The notes below the pieces were generated by a model. That model saw only the letters and a program-made list of their open reading frames with translations. It was not told the origin of the DNA and ran no database searches. From Azoarcus sp. (GTDB lineage: Bacteria; Pseudomonadota; Gammaproteobacteria; Burkholderiales; Rhodocyclaceae), in contig JAIRLA010000205.1 in NCBI GenBank assembly GCA_031259795.1, positions 1 through 17,225 of the forward strand: a stretch of 17,225 bases of DNA. Direction: 5' to 3'. Shown here piece after piece: positions 8,351-14,747 of the stretch. The position numbers and the translations under genes were made by a program. Numbering within the stretch: the stretch's first letter is position 1; every line of letters starts with the position of its first letter.

Positions 8351-10496
8351 CTTCAGTGTGTTCAACGCTTGTCGTAGCCATGCGCAGGCGGATGCTCAAT
8401 TCGGCGCCGCCGCCATCGCGATTGGCGATTTTCACTTCGCCGCCATGTTCGGTCACGATTTTCTTGATCATGGCCAGCCCCAGTCCGGTTCCTTTAGCCT
8501 TGGTTGTAAAGTAGGGTTCGAAGGCGCGCGCCAGCACTTCCGGCGGAAAACCGGGCCCGTTATCGCGGCACGATAACAGCACCCAGCCATCGCTGCCACG
8601 AGCGGCAAGCATGATTTCACCGTCGTCGCGTCCGATCAGCGCGTCCTGGGCATTTTGCAGCATATTGTGGACGATTTGGCGAATTTGCGAAGCATCTCCG
8701 GACACCAATGGCAAATTGGCAGGCAATCGCGCGTCGATGCGCACCGGCGCGCTCTCATAAAGATTGAGTATTTCGCGGATGAGTTCGCCGAGATCGAGGG
8801 TGACGAGCGTGGGCGCGGGCAGGCGCGCGTAATCGCGGAAAGCGTTGACCAAGTTCTTGACCGCTTCCACCTGATTGACGATGGTGCGGGTGGAGCGTTC
8901 GAGCATTTGCCGCCCGGACTCATCGAGCTGGGCGGAGAGTTTGAGCGCGAGCCGCTCGGCGGAAAGCTGGATCGGGGTCAGGGGATTCTTGACTTCATGG
9001 GCGAGGCGGCGGGCGACTTCGGCCCAGGCGGCGGTGCGTTGCGCTTCGATGAGGCGGGAAATGTCGTCGAAGACGACCACCAGCCCGCCGCCGGAGCTTT
9101 CGGGCAGGCGCGAACCGTGCACCAGCAGGGTGAGCGGCTGGCTGTCGGGGCGGGGGATTTCGAGTTCGGTCTGCCAGTCGCCCTCGTGGGCGGCGAAGCC
9201 TTCGAGCAGCGCGTCGCGCAATTCCGTATGCCGGGGCCAGCCGGCAAGCGCGATTTCCTCGAAACCGGCCAGATCGTCGCCGAGGATGTCGAGCGCGCCG
9301 TGATTGGCGGCGCGCAGGATGTTGTTGTTGGTGAAAGCCAGCACGCCGGTCGACAAGTGAGTCAACACGCTTTCAAGATAGGCGCGGGCGGCCTCGACCT
9401 CGGCGCGGTTGTTCTCGGCCTGCGCCCGCGCCTCTTCGAGCTGCCGGGTCATCTGGTTGAAGGAATGGGTCAATACCCCCATCTCGTCGCGAGCGGGCAG
9501 CGCCCGGCGCGGACTGTAGTCGCCCTGGGCGACCGCCTGGGTGCCCTGCGCGAGAATCAGCAATGGCCGGGTCAGGCGGCGGGCGAGGACGAACGCGACC
9601 GCCATCGCGGTAAAGAGCGCCAGCAGCAGGGTGAGGGTGAGGGTGAGGGTGTAGATGCGCGTGAGGCCGGAGCGCCCCTTGGTGAGTTGTTGGTAATCGC
9701 GATAGGCATTCTGCACGGCCTCGGCGTGCTGGCCGAAAGTCTGGGGTACGGGTTGCGTCAGTTGCAGCAGCCGGGGTTCTTCGGTCAACGCCTGCCCGGC
9801 GATGGGGGTCAGGACGCGGATGATCAGCCGTCCGCCGGGCGCGCTGTCGATCATGCTGAAGCCATGTCCCTGGCGGGCCTGGCGCAGTTGCTGCGGCGAC
9901 GGGGTGTCGGGCAGCAAACGGGCGACGTAGTCGTCCGTCGCGGTGGCAAGTATCTGTCCGTTCGCGCTGAGCAGGGTGACGCTGCTCACTCCGACCCATT
10001 CGCGCAGGCGATTGATCTGGGCCACCGAAACAGTCTCCCTGTTTTCTATATCCAGCGCGATGGTGGCGGCCTTGTCCTTGAGCTGGTCGACGAGATAATC
10101 GAGCGCATTCTGGCCGAGAGCGAGGCCGCCTTCGAGAGCGGAATCCACCCGTACATCGAACCATGATTCGATGCTGCGCATGACGAACTGGAGCGATACG
10201 GCGTAGACCAGGACTCCCGGCAACAACGCCATCAGCGCGAACATCAGCACCATGCGGTATTTCAGGCGCGACCCGAAGCGGCGGCTGCGGTATTCGCGCC
10301 ACAGACGGAACAATTGGAAGGCGACCAGCGCGGCCAGGGCCACCACGACCGCGCCGTTGAGGGCGAGCAGGTACAGGTAGGAGCCGCTGAACAGATCGGT
10401 GTTGGCGCTGGCCGAGATCAGGAGATAGAGCAGGACGCCGGCCAGGGCGGCGGCGATGGCGAGCGCGATGCTTCTTCCCTTATCTTTTATTCTCAT
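8328..10496 (-). CDS. ntrY: NtrY-like membrane sensor histidine kinase
   Basis: NtrY kinases autophosphorylate on histidine and pass phosphate to NtrX. The 722-residue protein has predicted membrane segments at about 8-28, 42-64, 81-104 and 281-304, an extracytoplasmic sensing region (about 105-280), HAMP (about 302-358), a PAS domain (about 370-480) and the kinase core. His500 lies in HEVKNPLTPIQ (500-510), the N-box in NMLQNAQDA (611-619), G1 in DNGPGF (645-650) and G2 in GTGLGLAM (669-676). All catalytic signatures are intact. The ATG at 10496 overlaps the preceding stop codon as ATGA. A further in-frame ATG at 10556 would add 20 residues deep inside the upstream gene and is less likely. 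TM4 contains a repeat-encoded LTLTLTL run. Confidence 0.93.
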   Translation of the reverse strand: MRIKDKGRSIALAIAAALAGVLLYLLISASANTDLFSGSYLYLLALNGAVVVALAALVAFQLFRLWREYRSRRFGSRLKYRMVLMFALMALLPGVLVYAVSLQFVMRSIESWFDVRVDSALEGGLALGQNALDYLVDQLKDKAATIALDIENRETVSVAQINRLREWVGVSSVTLLSANGQILATATDDYVARLLPDTPSPQQLRQARQGHGFSMIDSAPGGRLIIRVLTPIAGQALTEEPRLLQLTQPVPQTFGQHAEAVQNAYRDYQQLTKGRSGLTRIYTLTLTLTLLLALFTAMAVAFVLARRLTRPLLILAQGTQAVAQGDYSPRRALPARDEMGVLTHSFNQMTRQLEEARAQAENNRAEVEAARAYLESVLTHLSTGVLAFTNNNILRAANHGALDILGDDLAGFEEIALAGWPRHTELRDALLEGFAAHEGDWQTELEIPRPDSQPLTLLVHGSRLPESSGGGLVVVFDDISRLIEAQRTAAWAEVARRLAHEVKNPLTPIQLSAERLALKLSAQLDESGRQMLERSTRTIVNQVEAVKNLVNAFRDYARLPAPTLVTLDLGELIREILNLYESAPVRIDARLPANLPLVSGDASQIRQIVHNMLQNAQDALIGRDDGEIMLAARGSDGWVLLSCRDNGPGFPPEVLARAFEPYFTTKAKGTGLGLAMIKKIVTEHGGEVKIANRDGGGAELSIRLRMATTSVEHTEDGKVTHR
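9628..9651. repeat. Hexanucleotide tandem repeat (AGGGTG)x4 inside ntrY
   Basis: Four perfect AGGGTG units on the plus strand encode alternating Leu-Thr on the minus strand, within the fourth membrane segment of NtrY. A change of one unit keeps the frame and alters the helix by two residues. Confidence 0.75.
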
Positions 10497-11107
10497 GGCA
10501 AGACCGTCATACCGGGAAGGAAAGTCCATTCCACCCAGCCGGTGTCGACGTCCCATTCGCCGCTGGCCACGGCGGAGAGCTGGAACGGCTTGGGAAGCTG
10601 TGTGGCGTCGTGGCGAAAGCGCAATGCGACTTCATGCGAGACGCCGGCGGTGAGCGCTCCCGCCGGGGCGATGCGCCAATTGCGGATGTGCTGCATGGTG
10701 CGCAGCGCCTCTTCCAGCCTGCCGAAGCTTTGATGCAGGCTTCCGGCGCTCAGCCGGTAGCCGCGGGTGATGGCATGGTAGGAAAGGCGGTATTCGAGAC
10801 GGCGGTCGACCACGACTTTGTCGAACCAGTACCAACGCGGACGTTCGATCCGCAGTTCGGCAACGAAGTGCAGCGATACGCCATGATCCAGCGCGTCGGC
10901 AAGTTTGGGGCCCAGATCGAAGGCAAAGTCGGCATTGAGGGTATAGCCCTCTTCGGAAGAAACGATTTCGGCGGAGGCGATGTGGCTGCCGTTGTCTTCG
11001 GCGCTCGCGGCGGCGGCGACCAACAGCGCCGCAAGCAGCATCGTTTGCCGCAAGAATTCAACTACACCCGTTTTTCTTGCGCAGGCTCGCGTAGTAAAAG
11101 CCGTCAT
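10493..11107 (-). CDS. DUF4390 family exported protein
   Basis: This is an uncharacterised protein of up to 204 residues, matching the DUF4390 family that is recurrently found between rsmB and ntrY in betaproteobacteria. It has an N-terminal hydrophobic segment (MLLAALLVAAAASA at about 23-36) after a basic stretch, read as a signal peptide with cleavage near ASA-ED. The mature part shows the family-like blocks FDLGPKLADALDHGVSLHF and RPRWYWFDKVVVDRRLEYRLSYHAITRGYRLS. The ATG at 11107 overlaps rsmB by 50 nt and lacks a good ribosome site. A TTG at 11053, 4 nt after the rsmB stop, would give a neater signal peptide (MRQTMLLAALLV...) and may be the true start. The stop overlaps the ntrY ATG by 4 nt (ATGA), tying this protein to the sensor kinase. 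An envelope role linked to NtrY sensing is inference. Confidence 0.82.
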   Translation of the reverse strand: MTAFTTRACARKTGVVEFLRQTMLLAALLVAAAASAEDNGSHIASAEIVSSEEGYTLNADFAFDLGPKLADALDHGVSLHFVAELRIERPRWYWFDKVVVDRRLEYRLSYHAITRGYRLSAGSLHQSFGRLEEALRTMQHIRNWRIAPAGALTAGVSHEVALRFRHDATQLPKPFQLSAVASGEWDVDTGWVEWTFLPGMTVLP

Positions 11108-12407
11108 GGTCGGTGGTCGGTAACAAGGGGCGTGCTTCGTGAGCCTGTGGCGGAAATAGTTCGGCGTCCGGATTGCGGGTAAGGAAACGCTCGATCTGAC
11201 GGCGGTTTTCATCGTCGAAAACCGAGCATGTGACATAGAGCATTGTGCCATCAATAGCGAGAATATGCCAAAGCGCATCGAGGATCGCCGCCTGTTGCGC
11301 GGCGAAACCGGCAATATCCGTCTCGCGGCGCAGCCACTTGATGTCGGGGTGGCGGCGCGCGACGCCGGAGGCCGAGCATGGCGCGTCGGCGAGGATGCGC
11401 TCGAACGGACGGCCATCCCACCATGTGGCCGGTTCGCGGCAATCGCCGGCCTTGAGCGTGGCGCTCAGGCCAAGACGGGCGAGATTGGCTTGTACCCGCT
11501 GGAGGCGCACCGGATCGAGTTCGAGCGCGGTGAGTTCGATGTCGGCAAGTTCGAGCAGGTGCGCGCTCTTGCCGCCGGGCGCGGCGCAGGCGTCGAGCAC
11601 CCGTTCGCCCGCGCGTGCGCCAAGCCAGGGCGCCGCCCATTGCGCGCCCGCGTCCTGCACCGACACCCTGCCCTCGGCGAAGCCGGGCAAGCGCGACACC
11701 GGCATGGGATGCGTCAGCAGCAAGGCATCGTTGGCAAGCCGCCGCGCGCCAATGCCGGCGCTTTCGAGTTCGGACAGGTAGCTCTCGACTGTGGCGCGGC
11801 GGCGATTGACCCGCAAACTCATGGGCGGATGGCTGTTTCCGGCCGCCAATATGCTTTCCCAGTCATGAGGATGTTCCCGGCGGACACGCTCAATCCACCA
11901 TTCGGGGTGGGCATGGCGGGCGACGGGCTCCGCATTGCGCCAGACCGGCAATTCGGCCTTGTGGCGCAATACATTGCGCAGCACGCCATTGACGACGCCC
12001 TTGAGTCCGGGGGCAAGGCGGGCTGCCGCTTCCACGGCCTGATTGACCAAGGTATGGGCTTGTGCCGGGCGCTGTTCGAAGCGGTGGAGCGCGACCAGCA
12101 ACAAAGCACGAACAGGGATGGGGAGCGGCTTGTCGAGGAAATGGGCGAGTATGGCGTCGCCTTGCCCATATTTGCGCAGCGTGCTCCAGGCCAGATCACG
12201 GATCGCCCCGCGCACACCATGCGGCCAATCAGGGTGCTCATGCAACAAGGACTCGTAACGCACGGTGAGATTTTCGCCTTCGAGCACGGCGGCAAGTAAT
12301 TGCGCCGCGTGCAGCAAGGCGTGGGCGAGGCTGCCCGTTGGCGGCGCGGAGCATGAGGGATATGGTCCGCTGGCGGCGTGTTTGAGCGGGCGAATGAATT
12401 GTTTCAC
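11058..12407 (-). CDS. rsmB: 16S rRNA (cytosine-967-C5)-methyltransferase RsmB
   Basis: RsmB methylates C967 of 16S rRNA with S-adenosylmethionine. At 449 residues it is slightly longer than E. coli RsmB (429). An N-terminal NusB-like RNA-binding domain (about 28-150) includes HTLVNQAVEAA and GVVNGVLRN. The catalytic domain has the SAM motif LDACAAPGGKSAHLLELAD (about 271-289), the PCS cysteine in DAPCSASG (about Cys344) and the nucleophile Cys394 in YVTCSVFDDEN. The GTG at 12407 has AGGTG 6 nt upstream; an in-frame GTG at 12416 adds three residues but has no site. Either way the first codons lie within a parS sequence, which is why the protein begins with VKQ or FHVKQ. The first 25 or so residues are unlike the family and may be a lineage-specific extension. 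It heads the series running into DUF4390 and ntrYX. Confidence 0.95.
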   Translation of the reverse strand: MKQFIRPLKHAASGPYPSCSAPPTGSLAHALLHAAQLLAAVLEGENLTVRYESLLHEHPDWPHGVRGAIRDLAWSTLRKYGQGDAILAHFLDKPLPIPVRALLLVALHRFEQRPAQAHTLVNQAVEAAARLAPGLKGVVNGVLRNVLRHKAELPVWRNAEPVARHAHPEWWIERVRREHPHDWESILAAGNSHPPMSLRVNRRRATVESYLSELESAGIGARRLANDALLLTHPMPVSRLPGFAEGRVSVQDAGAQWAAPWLGARAGERVLDACAAPGGKSAHLLELADIELTALELDPVRLQRVQANLARLGLSATLKAGDCREPATWWDGRPFERILADAPCSASGVARRHPDIKWLRRETDIAGFAAQQAAILDALWHILAIDGTMLYVTCSVFDDENRRQIERFLTRNPDAELFPPQAHEARPLLPTTDHDGFYYASLRKKNGCS

Positions 12408-12415
12408 GTGGAACA
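12400..12415. promoter_or_regulatory. parS site 1 (TGTTTCACGTGGAACA)
   Basis: The 16-bp near-perfect palindrome matches the chromosomal parS consensus TGTTNCACGTGAAACA except for one G for A in the right half, a Y/R-consistent change mirrored in the left half of site 2. ParB binds such sites, loads as a CTP-dependent clamp and drives origin segregation with ParA. The site contains the likely rsmB start codon (12405-12407) and part of its ribosome site. Confidence 0.88.
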
Positions 12416-12418
12416 CCT
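12414..12418 (-). promoter_or_regulatory. rsmB ribosome binding site (AGGTG)
   Basis: AGGTG on the minus strand lies 6 nt before the GTG at 12407 and overlaps the end of parS site 1 by two bases. It favours the GTG at 12407 over that at 12416. Confidence 0.45.
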
Positions 12419-12464
12419 ATGTATGGAAGAACGGGAGACATCGAAAGGCCGGGATGAGTGGAAT

Positions 12465-12480
12465 TGTTCCACGTGAAACA
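12465..12480. promoter_or_regulatory. parS site 2 (TGTTCCACGTGAAACA)
   Basis: This exactly fits TGTTNCACGTGAAACA. It is the exact reverse complement of site 1, so the two copies are inverted with centres 65 bp apart. One extra base (T before TGTTTC...) is shared, making 17 identical positions. It lies wholly between genes. Confidence 0.92.
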
Positions 12481-12629
12481 ACTTCCAGAAGTGCGAAACA
12501 CCGAAGCAACGATCATGGCGATCAATCAGGCGCCGCGAAAATGGATTGCATGCGGACCAAGGCGCTGCTACCCGGCGCGGCGCTCATCCTCTTCCCGCAC
12601 AGCCATCGACACAACGCAAGTCTGCCCGC

Positions 12630-12648
12630 AAAAACGGCGCGCGTGCCG
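12630..12648 (-). terminator. Weak terminator candidate after the DUF3053 gene
   Basis: On the minus strand a 4-bp stem CGGC/GCCG with a 6-nt loop is followed directly by TTTTT, 4 bp beyond the TAA stop. The stem is short, so activity is uncertain. Confidence 0.3.
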
Positions 12649-12651
12649 CAC

Positions 12652-13377
12652 TTACCGTCTGGCGGCCTGCCGCGAAAATTCGTTGTGCCGCGCCTGGATG
12701 TCGCTTTCCAGCCGGGCGATGTCGGCCTGCATTTCATTGAGCCGGACGGTCAGGGCCTGATCCTTGACCTGTATCAGTCCATCCCGTATTTCAATCTTGT
12801 TTTTATTGGCATTGATGAACTCGAACATGGCGGAAATCTTGTCCAGCATCTCGCCCATCATGGGAACGATGACTTTGAATTCCTGGGCGGGCAAACGCAC
12901 ATATTTGTCGAACGCCCTTGAGTAAACGGCTTTCAGATCGTTGGGCTGACTGAAAGTGGAGAATCTCGATTCGGCGATGGACAACTCATTGTCGAGGGAT
13001 TTCTCCAGTTGCTGGAGCATGTTCCGGGAAGCGAGAATGGCGCGTTTGCGCGTTTCGGCGTCCGCTTCGGGATTGCCGAGAACCACGCGGCTGTCGCGGT
13101 ACAACCTGTTCAGGGGTTTACCCACGTGTTCGGCGACAGCTTTATTGAAATCGACGACCACATCGTAGTGTGTCGCGTATTCGCCGAATCTCTTGCGCAT
13201 CGTTGAAGTAGGCACAGCGATGCTGGTTTGCTGCTTGGCCATTTCATCCTGCAAGAAATCGATGAAGGCTTGCCGTTGCTGCAATTCCCTGCCGCATCCG
13301 GCAAGCAGCATGGCAATGCCGGCGAAGACGAAAAACAGCCATGGCGCGATGAATGAATGAAAACGTTTGTTCGCCAT
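12652..13377 (-). CDS. DUF3053 (YiaF-like) lipoprotein
   Basis: This is a 241-residue predicted lipoprotein of unknown function. A signal segment (about 9-27) ends in the lipobox LLAGC with Cys28 as the lipidation site. The mature part is largely helical and charged. The block QRQAFIDFLQDEMA right after the lipobox resembles E. coli YiaF (QRKAFIDFLQ), as does NDLKAVYSRAFDKYV later, supporting the DUF3053 family. The C-terminal third (about 205-240) is coiled-coil-like and rich in E, Q, R and L. The ATG at 13377 has GGGAG 9 nt upstream. It follows the CBS-domain membrane protein gene by 53 bp and may be co-transcribed with it. Family assignment rests on remembered similarity, so it is moderately sure. 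Confidence 0.8.
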   Translation of the reverse strand: MANKRFHSFIAPWLFFVFAGIAMLLAGCGRELQQRQAFIDFLQDEMAKQQTSIAVPTSTMRKRFGEYATHYDVVVDFNKAVAEHVGKPLNRLYRDSRVVLGNPEADAETRKRAILASRNMLQQLEKSLDNELSIAESRFSTFSQPNDLKAVYSRAFDKYVRLPAQEFKVIVPMMGEMLDKISAMFEFINANKNKIEIRDGLIQVKDQALTVRLNEMQADIARLESDIQARHNEFSRQAARR

Positions 13378-13430
13378 AAGGCCAGACTCCCGACTGTGCT
13401 TGTCGTGCTTGTTGTTCTCGCTCCGCCAGT

Positions 13431-14747
13431 TCAATTGGCGTCCGCTTCGCCTGCTTCGTCCGCCGGCCCGGGCAAACGGCTGGCCAGCACCTTGTCGATG
13501 CGCTTGCCGTCGAGATCGACGACTTCGAGCCGCCACGTCTCCCAGGTGATGACATCGCCCGTGCGCGGCAAGCGCCCAAGCAGCCACATAATCATACCCG
13601 AGAGCGTGTGGTAGCGGCCCTTGTCTTCTTCGGGGACTTCCTTGAGTTCGAGCAGATCCTTGAGTTCAGGCAGAGGGATGAGGCCATCGAGCAACCATGA
13701 ACCGTTTTCCCGCTGCACGGCCCAAGCGTCCTCCTGCCTCTCGGTGCGGAATTCGCCGATGACCGCTTCCATCACATCCTGAAGCGCCACCAGCCCTTGC
13801 ACCTCGCCGTATTCGTCGATGACGAACACCATGTGCGAACTGAAAGCGCGGAATTGTTCGAGCAACTCCATGCCGGTGAGCGACTCGGGGACATAGACCG
13901 GACTTTGCAACTGGCTGGAGATATCGGCCTTGCCGCCCTTGAGCGTCTGGGTGAAAAGCTGCTTGCTCGAAATGATGCCGAGGATGTCGTCCAGCCCGCC
14001 CCGGCACACGGGGAAGCGCGAATGTTCCGATTCGGCCACGCGGGAAAGGTTTTCTTCCAGCGGGCGCTCGATGTCGAGCCAGACGATGTCCGAGCGCGGC
14101 ACCATCAGCGAGCCGATCTGGCGATCATCGAGGCGAAAGACGTTACGCACCATGGCATGCTCGTTTTTCTCGATGACGCCGCTCTCCGAGCCTTCTTCGA
14201 GCAGGGCATGGATTTCTTCCTCGGTGACGCCGGGCGTTTTTCCGTCGCGCAAGCCCAGGAGGCGCAACAGCAATGCGGTCGATGCCGAAAGCGCGCGCAC
14301 GGCCGGGCGCGAAACGAGCGCCAGCGCATACATCGGCCTTGCCACGCGGCGGGCGATGCCTTCGGGGTTGATCTGGGCAATGCGCTTTGGCACCAGTTCG
14401 CCGATCACGATCGACACGTAGGTAATCAACAGCACCGCGAACGCGGTCGCACTGATCTCGCTTGCCCGTTGCTCCATGCCCGACTCGCGCAGCCAGGAAG
14501 CGATCGGCGCGGCGAGCGCGGCTTCGCCCACCACCCCGCTCAGAATGCCGATCAGGGTGATTCCGATCTGGACGGTCGACAGAAAGCGGGTGGGTTCGTC
14601 ACCGAGGGCGACCGCCACTTTGGCCGCCGCGTCCCCTTCTTCGGCCAGTTTGGCGAGTTTGGCGCGCCGGGCGGCGACCAGCGCGATTTCCGACATGGCG
14701 AAAGCGCCATTGATGACAATCAGGACAACCAGTATGAAGATTTCCAT
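13431..14747 (-). CDS. CNNM/CBS/CorC-type membrane protein (hemolysin family, HlyC/CorC)
   Basis: The 438 residues show the full family layout. A CNNM (DUF21) membrane domain covers about 1-170, with SEIALVAARRAKL (19-31), QIGITLIGILSG (60-71) and GELVPKR (116-122). Two CBS domains follow at about 213-262 (SLMVPRSDIVWLD) and 281-332 (FVIDEYGEVQGLVALQDVMEAVIGE). A CorC/HlyC transporter-associated domain occupies about 345-425 (DGLIPLPELKDLLEL, YHTLSGMIMWLLGRLPRTGD). Such proteins are linked to Mg2+/Co2+ or Na+-driven Mg2+ transport and mostly annotated as hemolysin-like; a true haemolytic role is not implied. CBS domains normally sense adenine nucleotides. It lies 140 bp after tldD, with no obvious regulatory site in the gap, and 53 bp before the lipoprotein gene. 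Confidence 0.92.
   Translation of the reverse strand: MEIFILVVLIVINGAFAMSEIALVAARRAKLAKLAEEGDAAAKVAVALGDEPTRFLSTVQIGITLIGILSGVVGEAALAAPIASWLRESGMEQRASEISATAFAVLLITYVSIVIGELVPKRIAQINPEGIARRVARPMYALALVSRPAVRALSASTALLLRLLGLRDGKTPGVTEEEIHALLEEGSESGVIEKNEHAMVRNVFRLDDRQIGSLMVPRSDIVWLDIERPLEENLSRVAESEHSRFPVCRGGLDDILGIISSKQLFTQTLKGGKADISSQLQSPVYVPESLTGMELLEQFRAFSSHMVFVIDEYGEVQGLVALQDVMEAVIGEFRTERQEDAWAVQRENGSWLLDGLIPLPELKDLLELKEVPEEDKGRYHTLSGMIMWLLGRLPRTGDVITWETWRLEVVDLDGKRIDKVLASRLPGPADEAGEADAN

Follow-up and report, generated by a model that had tools for sequence, protein, structure and literature searches.

The window, i.e., the whole stretch of DNA analysed (17,225 nucleotides, the entire contig C18 of a draft genome), carries two 16-bp sites which, by their sequence, are very probably (probability of about 0.93) ordinary chromosomal parS, i.e., the ParB-binding centromere of a betaproteobacterium of the Azoarcus/Thauera kind. 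The parS identity put forward in the initial annotation is thus supported. It rests on direct observations: (i) copies are few and unscattered; (ii) the genome has a parA-parB pair; (iii) the motif is strongly conserved; (iv) parS of relatives is close to dnaA. The sequence itself and the linkage to rsmB within the genus are observed in the same direct way. The features concerned are the following.

11058..12416, strand −: rsmB, 16S rRNA (cytosine(967)-C(5))-methyltransferase, 452 aa (NF008149, 525 bits for a cut-off of 375)
12400..12415, no strand: parS site 1, TGTTTCACGTGGAACA on the + strand, exact match
12465..12480, no strand: parS site 2, TGTTCCACGTGAAACA on the + strand, intergenic, exact match
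12652..13587, strand −: ORF with a DUF3053 domain (PF11254, E 2.6e-37, matched residues 91-296), its true start being probably internal

A motif search of the window returned the two parS-type 16-mers exactly where the initial annotation had placed them (12400-12415 and 12465-12480). Its remark that the window holds no further good match is borne out even when up to 3 mismatches are allowed; at this level 2 matches are observed vs. 0.12 expected, and at least 2 loose matches are found in 2 of 200 shuffles. The class Ia parS consensus is TGTTNCACGTGAAACA (PMC7022226). Both sites are 16-bp palindromes near this consensus and are exact for TGTTYCACGTGRAACA. That they are exact reverse complements of each other is true, yet nearly trivial. 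Each site is palindromic except at positions 5/12, so the second copy differs only in the arm bearing C; the term «inverted» merely tells which arm has this C (position 5 or 12). The spacing of 65 bp holds when measured start to start. The repeat finder gives a perfect inverted repeat of 17 nt (12399-12415 / 12465-12481), with 49 nt between the arms. When the motif search is extended to the assembly, these two sites remain the only ones with at most one mismatch, i.e., the motif is not scattered, and the reversed-pattern control gives 0. The 14-bp core GTTYCACGTGRAAC also has only the same two matches in the whole assembly. Copies are therefore few and clustered, as for class Ia parS, in an assembly that is a draft (2.41 Mb, 308 contigs, 78% complete) and in which further sites may be missing.

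ParA and ParB genes are present in the same genome as the sites. The only TIGR00180 ParB match of the genome is above the cut-off and lies on contig C149 (4.2 kb), in the order ParA-type ATPase gene, parB, F0 ATP synthase subunit a and c genes; one small ORF between these genes is without any match. The ATPase has the Walker motif KGGVGKTT, and ParA-type models match it below their curated cut-offs. The ParB has the GERRWRA motif (described in PMC7022226). Among solved ParB/Spo0J chains its best match is 7bnk_A (E 3.4e-50), and 1vz0 and 6t1f are matched too. Its 203 bits against the Noc exception model, below the cut-off of 315, were counted against the main reading. It must be added that dnaA is on contig C66, parAB on C149 and parS on C18, so the parS-oriC and parS-parAB distances are unreadable in this genome. 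The evidence of proximity to the origin comes from relatives.

The pair is located within, or on the border of, the 235-bp stretch separating the stop of the DUF3053 gene, which is upstream of rsmB on the same strand, from the rsmB start. The initial annotation omitted the overlap of one site with the likely rsmB start codon. Site 1 plus base 12416, read on the − strand, gives GTG TTC CAC GTG AAA CA., i.e., the first rsmB codons. Site 1 covers 2 of the 3 bases of the likely GTG start (12416-12414), and the RsmB N-terminus from the GTG at 12416 is V(M)-F-H-V-K-Q. Apart from the GTG of codon 4 (inside site 1), the next in-frame ATG/GTG/TTG is the TTG of codon 34; the RsmB model match already starts at residue 29 (model position 8). 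An rsmB start overlapping parS site 1 is therefore likely, not proven. The peptide words MFHVKQ, MFHVKH, VFHVKQ and VFHVKH were absent from the literature texts searched.

All recognised genes of the window are on the − strand: priA, hemE, trkH, trkA, a response regulator (sigma-54-interaction) and a HAMP/HisKA kinase (presumably ntrX and ntrY, named from the gene order), DUF4390 and rsmB, then, beyond the parS pair, the DUF3053 gene, a CNNM/CorC-domain gene, tldD and a nitrilase-like gene (below curated cut-offs). Two features of the region count against the main reading. Firstly, the right flank of the window (CNNM, tldD, nitrilase family) is without the yidC/dnaA neighbourhood seen in genome G003 and locus L024. 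Secondly, the GC skew of the + strand (positions 12000-13500 of the window) drops from ~+0.1 to ~−0.03 close to the pair (~12.5 kb), with no change in the strand of the recognised genes, and the direction of this change is the reverse of what an origin would be expected to give. The same skew change occurs in L003, a collinear relative. A chimeric contig at the skew break (~12.5 kb) was considered and discarded, L003 (95% DNA identity) being collinear on both sides. L003 has ~120 bp more than the window between its two sites.

The genus set comprises 21 members, including the genome of the window, and 18 of them have an RsmB match above the cut-off. All of these 18 carry one or two parS cores, i.e., 29 cores (two in 11 genomes, one in 7). 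As many as 28 of the 29 share a contig with the RsmB match and are located 5' of it, the largest distance being ~0.9 kb (G005); the remaining core (G012:C77) is on a different contig from the RsmB match. Three members (G008, G010 and G020) have neither an RsmB match at E<=1e-70 nor an intact-core site at two mismatches; the 202-bit RsmB match of G008 is below the cut-off and resembles the second match of other genomes. Since the RsmB match is lacking together with the site, the rsmB/parS locus is probably absent from these three assemblies. In G001 and G003, 3.4-3.6 kb separate dnaA from the nearest parS. G007 has the order rsmB ... mnmG-rsmG-parA-parB, with 12 kb between parS and parB, and its dnaA is on a separate contig.

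Conservation was followed in 18 close loci (the window plus 17), a set overlapping but not identical to the 18 genus genomes used for the cores. Among the 16 motif columns, 15 are invariant and column 5 has an identity of 0.71; the neighbouring columns, anchored without gaps, have identities of 0.21-0.43. The MAFFT means are 0.98 within the site, 0.34 and 0.41 over the two flanks of 100 columns and 0.64 further into rsmB, the within-site value being inflated, and somewhat circular, since sites were chosen by motif (at most one mismatch). Nevertheless, all 18 sites are exact though one mismatch was permitted. The site is thus conserved between flanks that have diverged to near random, with the same reserve on the choice of sites by motif.

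According to PMC5450999, SPR of Burkholderia parSc1 tolerates symmetrical changes only at positions 1-16 and 5-12. Variation here is at 5/12, and most one-mismatch relatives vary at the outer positions 1/16, i.e., at the positions tolerant in that study; a few single off-locus one-mismatch matches in the family genomes differ at other positions. A core-altered parS-like sequence, TGTTTCACATGAAACA, was observed in two other genera of the family (G059:C25:43090-43105; G069:C164:42814-42829 and 42850-42865), ~4 and 7 kb from dnaA. In G059, CGTTTCACGTGAAACG directly adjoins it. Core changes of this class are reported to abolish binding in Burkholderia (PMC5450999). The sequence may be a derived parS whose ParB has co-evolved.

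At the family level, 65 of the 71 genomes have 1-3 sites at no more than one mismatch, and the reversed control matches in 7 of the 71. Six genomes are without such a site. Four of them (G023, G075, G089 and G099) have clustered sites altered only at the outer positions 1 and 16, found on the dnaA contig in three of the four. The other two (G080 and G101) are the genomes, among the 71, with no clear parS site at up to two mismatches. At the two-mismatch level the control gives matches as well (1-4 per strand in the six genomes), so the case of the four genomes rests on the end-only pattern and the clustering, not on counts. In G023 (G023:C10:38720-82127), five parS-like sites are spread over 43 kb of the dnaA contig, with both outer positions altered in all of them; this is possibly a centromere expanded with respect to relatives.

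Distances to dnaA are available for 35 of the 42 genomes listed (out of 65 with a site), i.e., 12 with chromosome-size contigs and 23 others; 7 with dnaA on another contig are omitted, and G027, G030, G038 and G040 are added. On chromosome-size contigs, where the distances assume a circle (G053 being 2 contigs and G040 one scaffold), parS lies no more than 25 kb from dnaA in 12 of 16, with a median of 6.2 kb. The four exceptions are G030 (59 kb), G038 (91 kb), G055 (120 kb) and G027 (437 kb). The 23 other genomes, with dnaA on the parS contig, have a median distance of 6.9 kb and a maximum of 39 kb. Among the matches listed, parS is 4-13 kb from dnaA in 31 of the 35 measurable family genomes. 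The parB-parS distance reaches ~300 kb in G040 and 138 kb in G042; thus parS and parAB can be far apart. In G040 (Azoarcus sp. L1K30), 40 stretches of 20 kb taken along the 4.96-Mb scaffold place an origin-type skew change between the stretch at 3.35 Mb and that at 3.42 Mb; dnaA and parS are located at 3.48-3.49 Mb, parB at 3.19 Mb.

Linkage of parS to rsmB, tight in the genus, is weaker than linkage to dnaA at the family level. A site is within 3 kb of rsmB in 17 of the 42 family genomes listed (27 of the 42 have both on one contig). Of 80 named loci found via RsmB, 59 carry a site no more than 3 kb upstream of the gene and 20, mostly more distant and some of them short, have none at up to two mismatches in the stretch covered; in L079 the site is 9 kb away. 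The spacing of sites, start to start, was noted in the 29 listed family genomes with at least two sites per contig: 26-44 bp in 10 and 783-831 bp in 10. The ~800-bp pair is common among the 80 named loci and flanks a TauE/SafE-family gene in the two loci tested (L024 and L036); the idea that this spacing of free-living relatives encloses parA was dropped on that ground. In L024 (Azoarcus sp. L1K30, 9000-9017), the outer parS shares one base with the ATG of the tauE-like gene, so that a likely start codon coincides with parS here too.

The comparison of the 18 close loci also bears on the geometry of the pair. Ten have two sites and 8 have one. Spacing in the ten is 58-185 bp, with one of 850 bp, and two of the ten include a one-mismatch partner. 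Among the ten, the window and L008 are the 2 whose sites have opposite asymmetry. The initial annotation suggested that the close inverted pair may serve as a centre of ParB loading or nucleation; a special device of this kind is not supported, given the variable spacing and orientation and the 8 single-site loci, and a special inverted-pair architecture was rejected for the same variability. In these loci the conserved element is the presence of a site; neither the geometry of the pair nor the overlap with the start is required in a conserved way.

If the sites act as parS, their role may be described by analogy with established ParABS biology, which covers ParB binding, loading, spreading and segregation. 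ParB would bind each 16-bp near-palindrome as a dimer, load onto DNA at parS and then spread outwards. The partition complex formed by ParB would be moved by ParA, which would draw the newly copied origin regions apart. Either site would work alone, the second one providing added loading capacity or redundancy.

It may be asked whether the sites are also operators, ParB at the rsmB start or leader blocking transcription or the start of translation, and the pair being kept partly for gene control. In P. aeruginosa (Pseudomonas aeruginosa), ParB at the intergenic parS3/parS4 represses the adjacent genes (PMC5521831), and by this analogy a local control of rsmB by ParB is possible. Eight of the 18 close loci, the window included, have a site lying across an in-frame ATG/GTG start of rsmB, and the 28 genus cores just 5' of rsmB point in the same direction. 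However, the overlap is not a conserved feature, as the nearest site lies out of frame in 8 of the 18 loci and is in frame with a CTG in 2. Moreover, the peptide MFHVKQFI was among the six patterns of the locus search, and the sample thus favours loci with the overlap. Many named relatives have their sites 1-2.5 kb upstream of rsmB, around the TauE/SafE-family gene in the two loci tested, and the low share of family genomes with a site near rsmB (17 of 42) argues against it as well. Genes adjacent to the intragenic parS1/parS2 of P. aeruginosa are without such an effect in the same study (PMC5521831). Gene control as a reason for keeping the pair is thus unlikely. A bolder proposal, in which the centromere of the genus is tied to the rsmB start, dnaA and parAB seem to shift position with respect to it, and ParB loading would gate rsmB and so link segregation with ribosome maturation, is quite improbable. 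The overlap makes a simple system in which to ask if a gene starting within a parS is silenced by ParB.

It is very doubtful that the inverted pair acts as a hairpin or cruciform, i.e., as a terminator or a translation switch of rsmB. The perfect 17-nt repeat with its 49-nt spacer would allow it, and the fold of the single-strand DNA has a z of −6.2 vs. shuffles (0 of 200 as good), but any repeated palindrome folds so. The single site of 8 loci and the variable spacing of the 10 others do not fit such a structure, and no terminator-like site is found at the pair, two being found at 12637-12651, at the end of the DUF3053 gene. This reading was rejected. Finally, chance occurrence or a mobile or repetitive element, for which only the presence of an inverted repeat could be invoked, is practically negligible and is refuted by conservation: the two exact matches of the 2.4-Mb assembly are both here with 0 for the reversed-pattern control, and the place relative to rsmB is the same in 18 genus genomes where readable.

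The reading as ordinary chromosomal parS can be compared with known systems. Literature searches returned, among the matches listed, no dedicated parS study of the Azoarcus/Thauera group. The present data provide a small comparative centromere map of this group: few sites, mostly 4-13 kb from dnaA, and at rsmB in the genus. They also indicate that evolution frees mainly positions 5/12 and 1/16, in agreement with the binding tests published in PMC5450999; the positions tolerant here are those of Burkholderia parS.

Two parS sites on a main chromosome are already on record: chromosome 1 of Burkholderia cenocepacia has 2 parS sites, tGTTNCACGTGAAACa, according to PMC7022226. The 16-bp motif, the small number of sites and the bacterial class are shared with it. 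Here the pair is at the rsmB start; the comparison with Burkholderia concerns the sites themselves. The parS1-parS4 of P. aeruginosa, near oriC, are likewise origin-region ParB sites (the origin position here being that of relatives). One of the four sites nearest to oriC is sufficient for segregation in P. aeruginosa (PMC4368675), which fits the relatives having one site. P. aeruginosa has ten putative sites vs. 1-2 cores in each of the 18 genus genomes.
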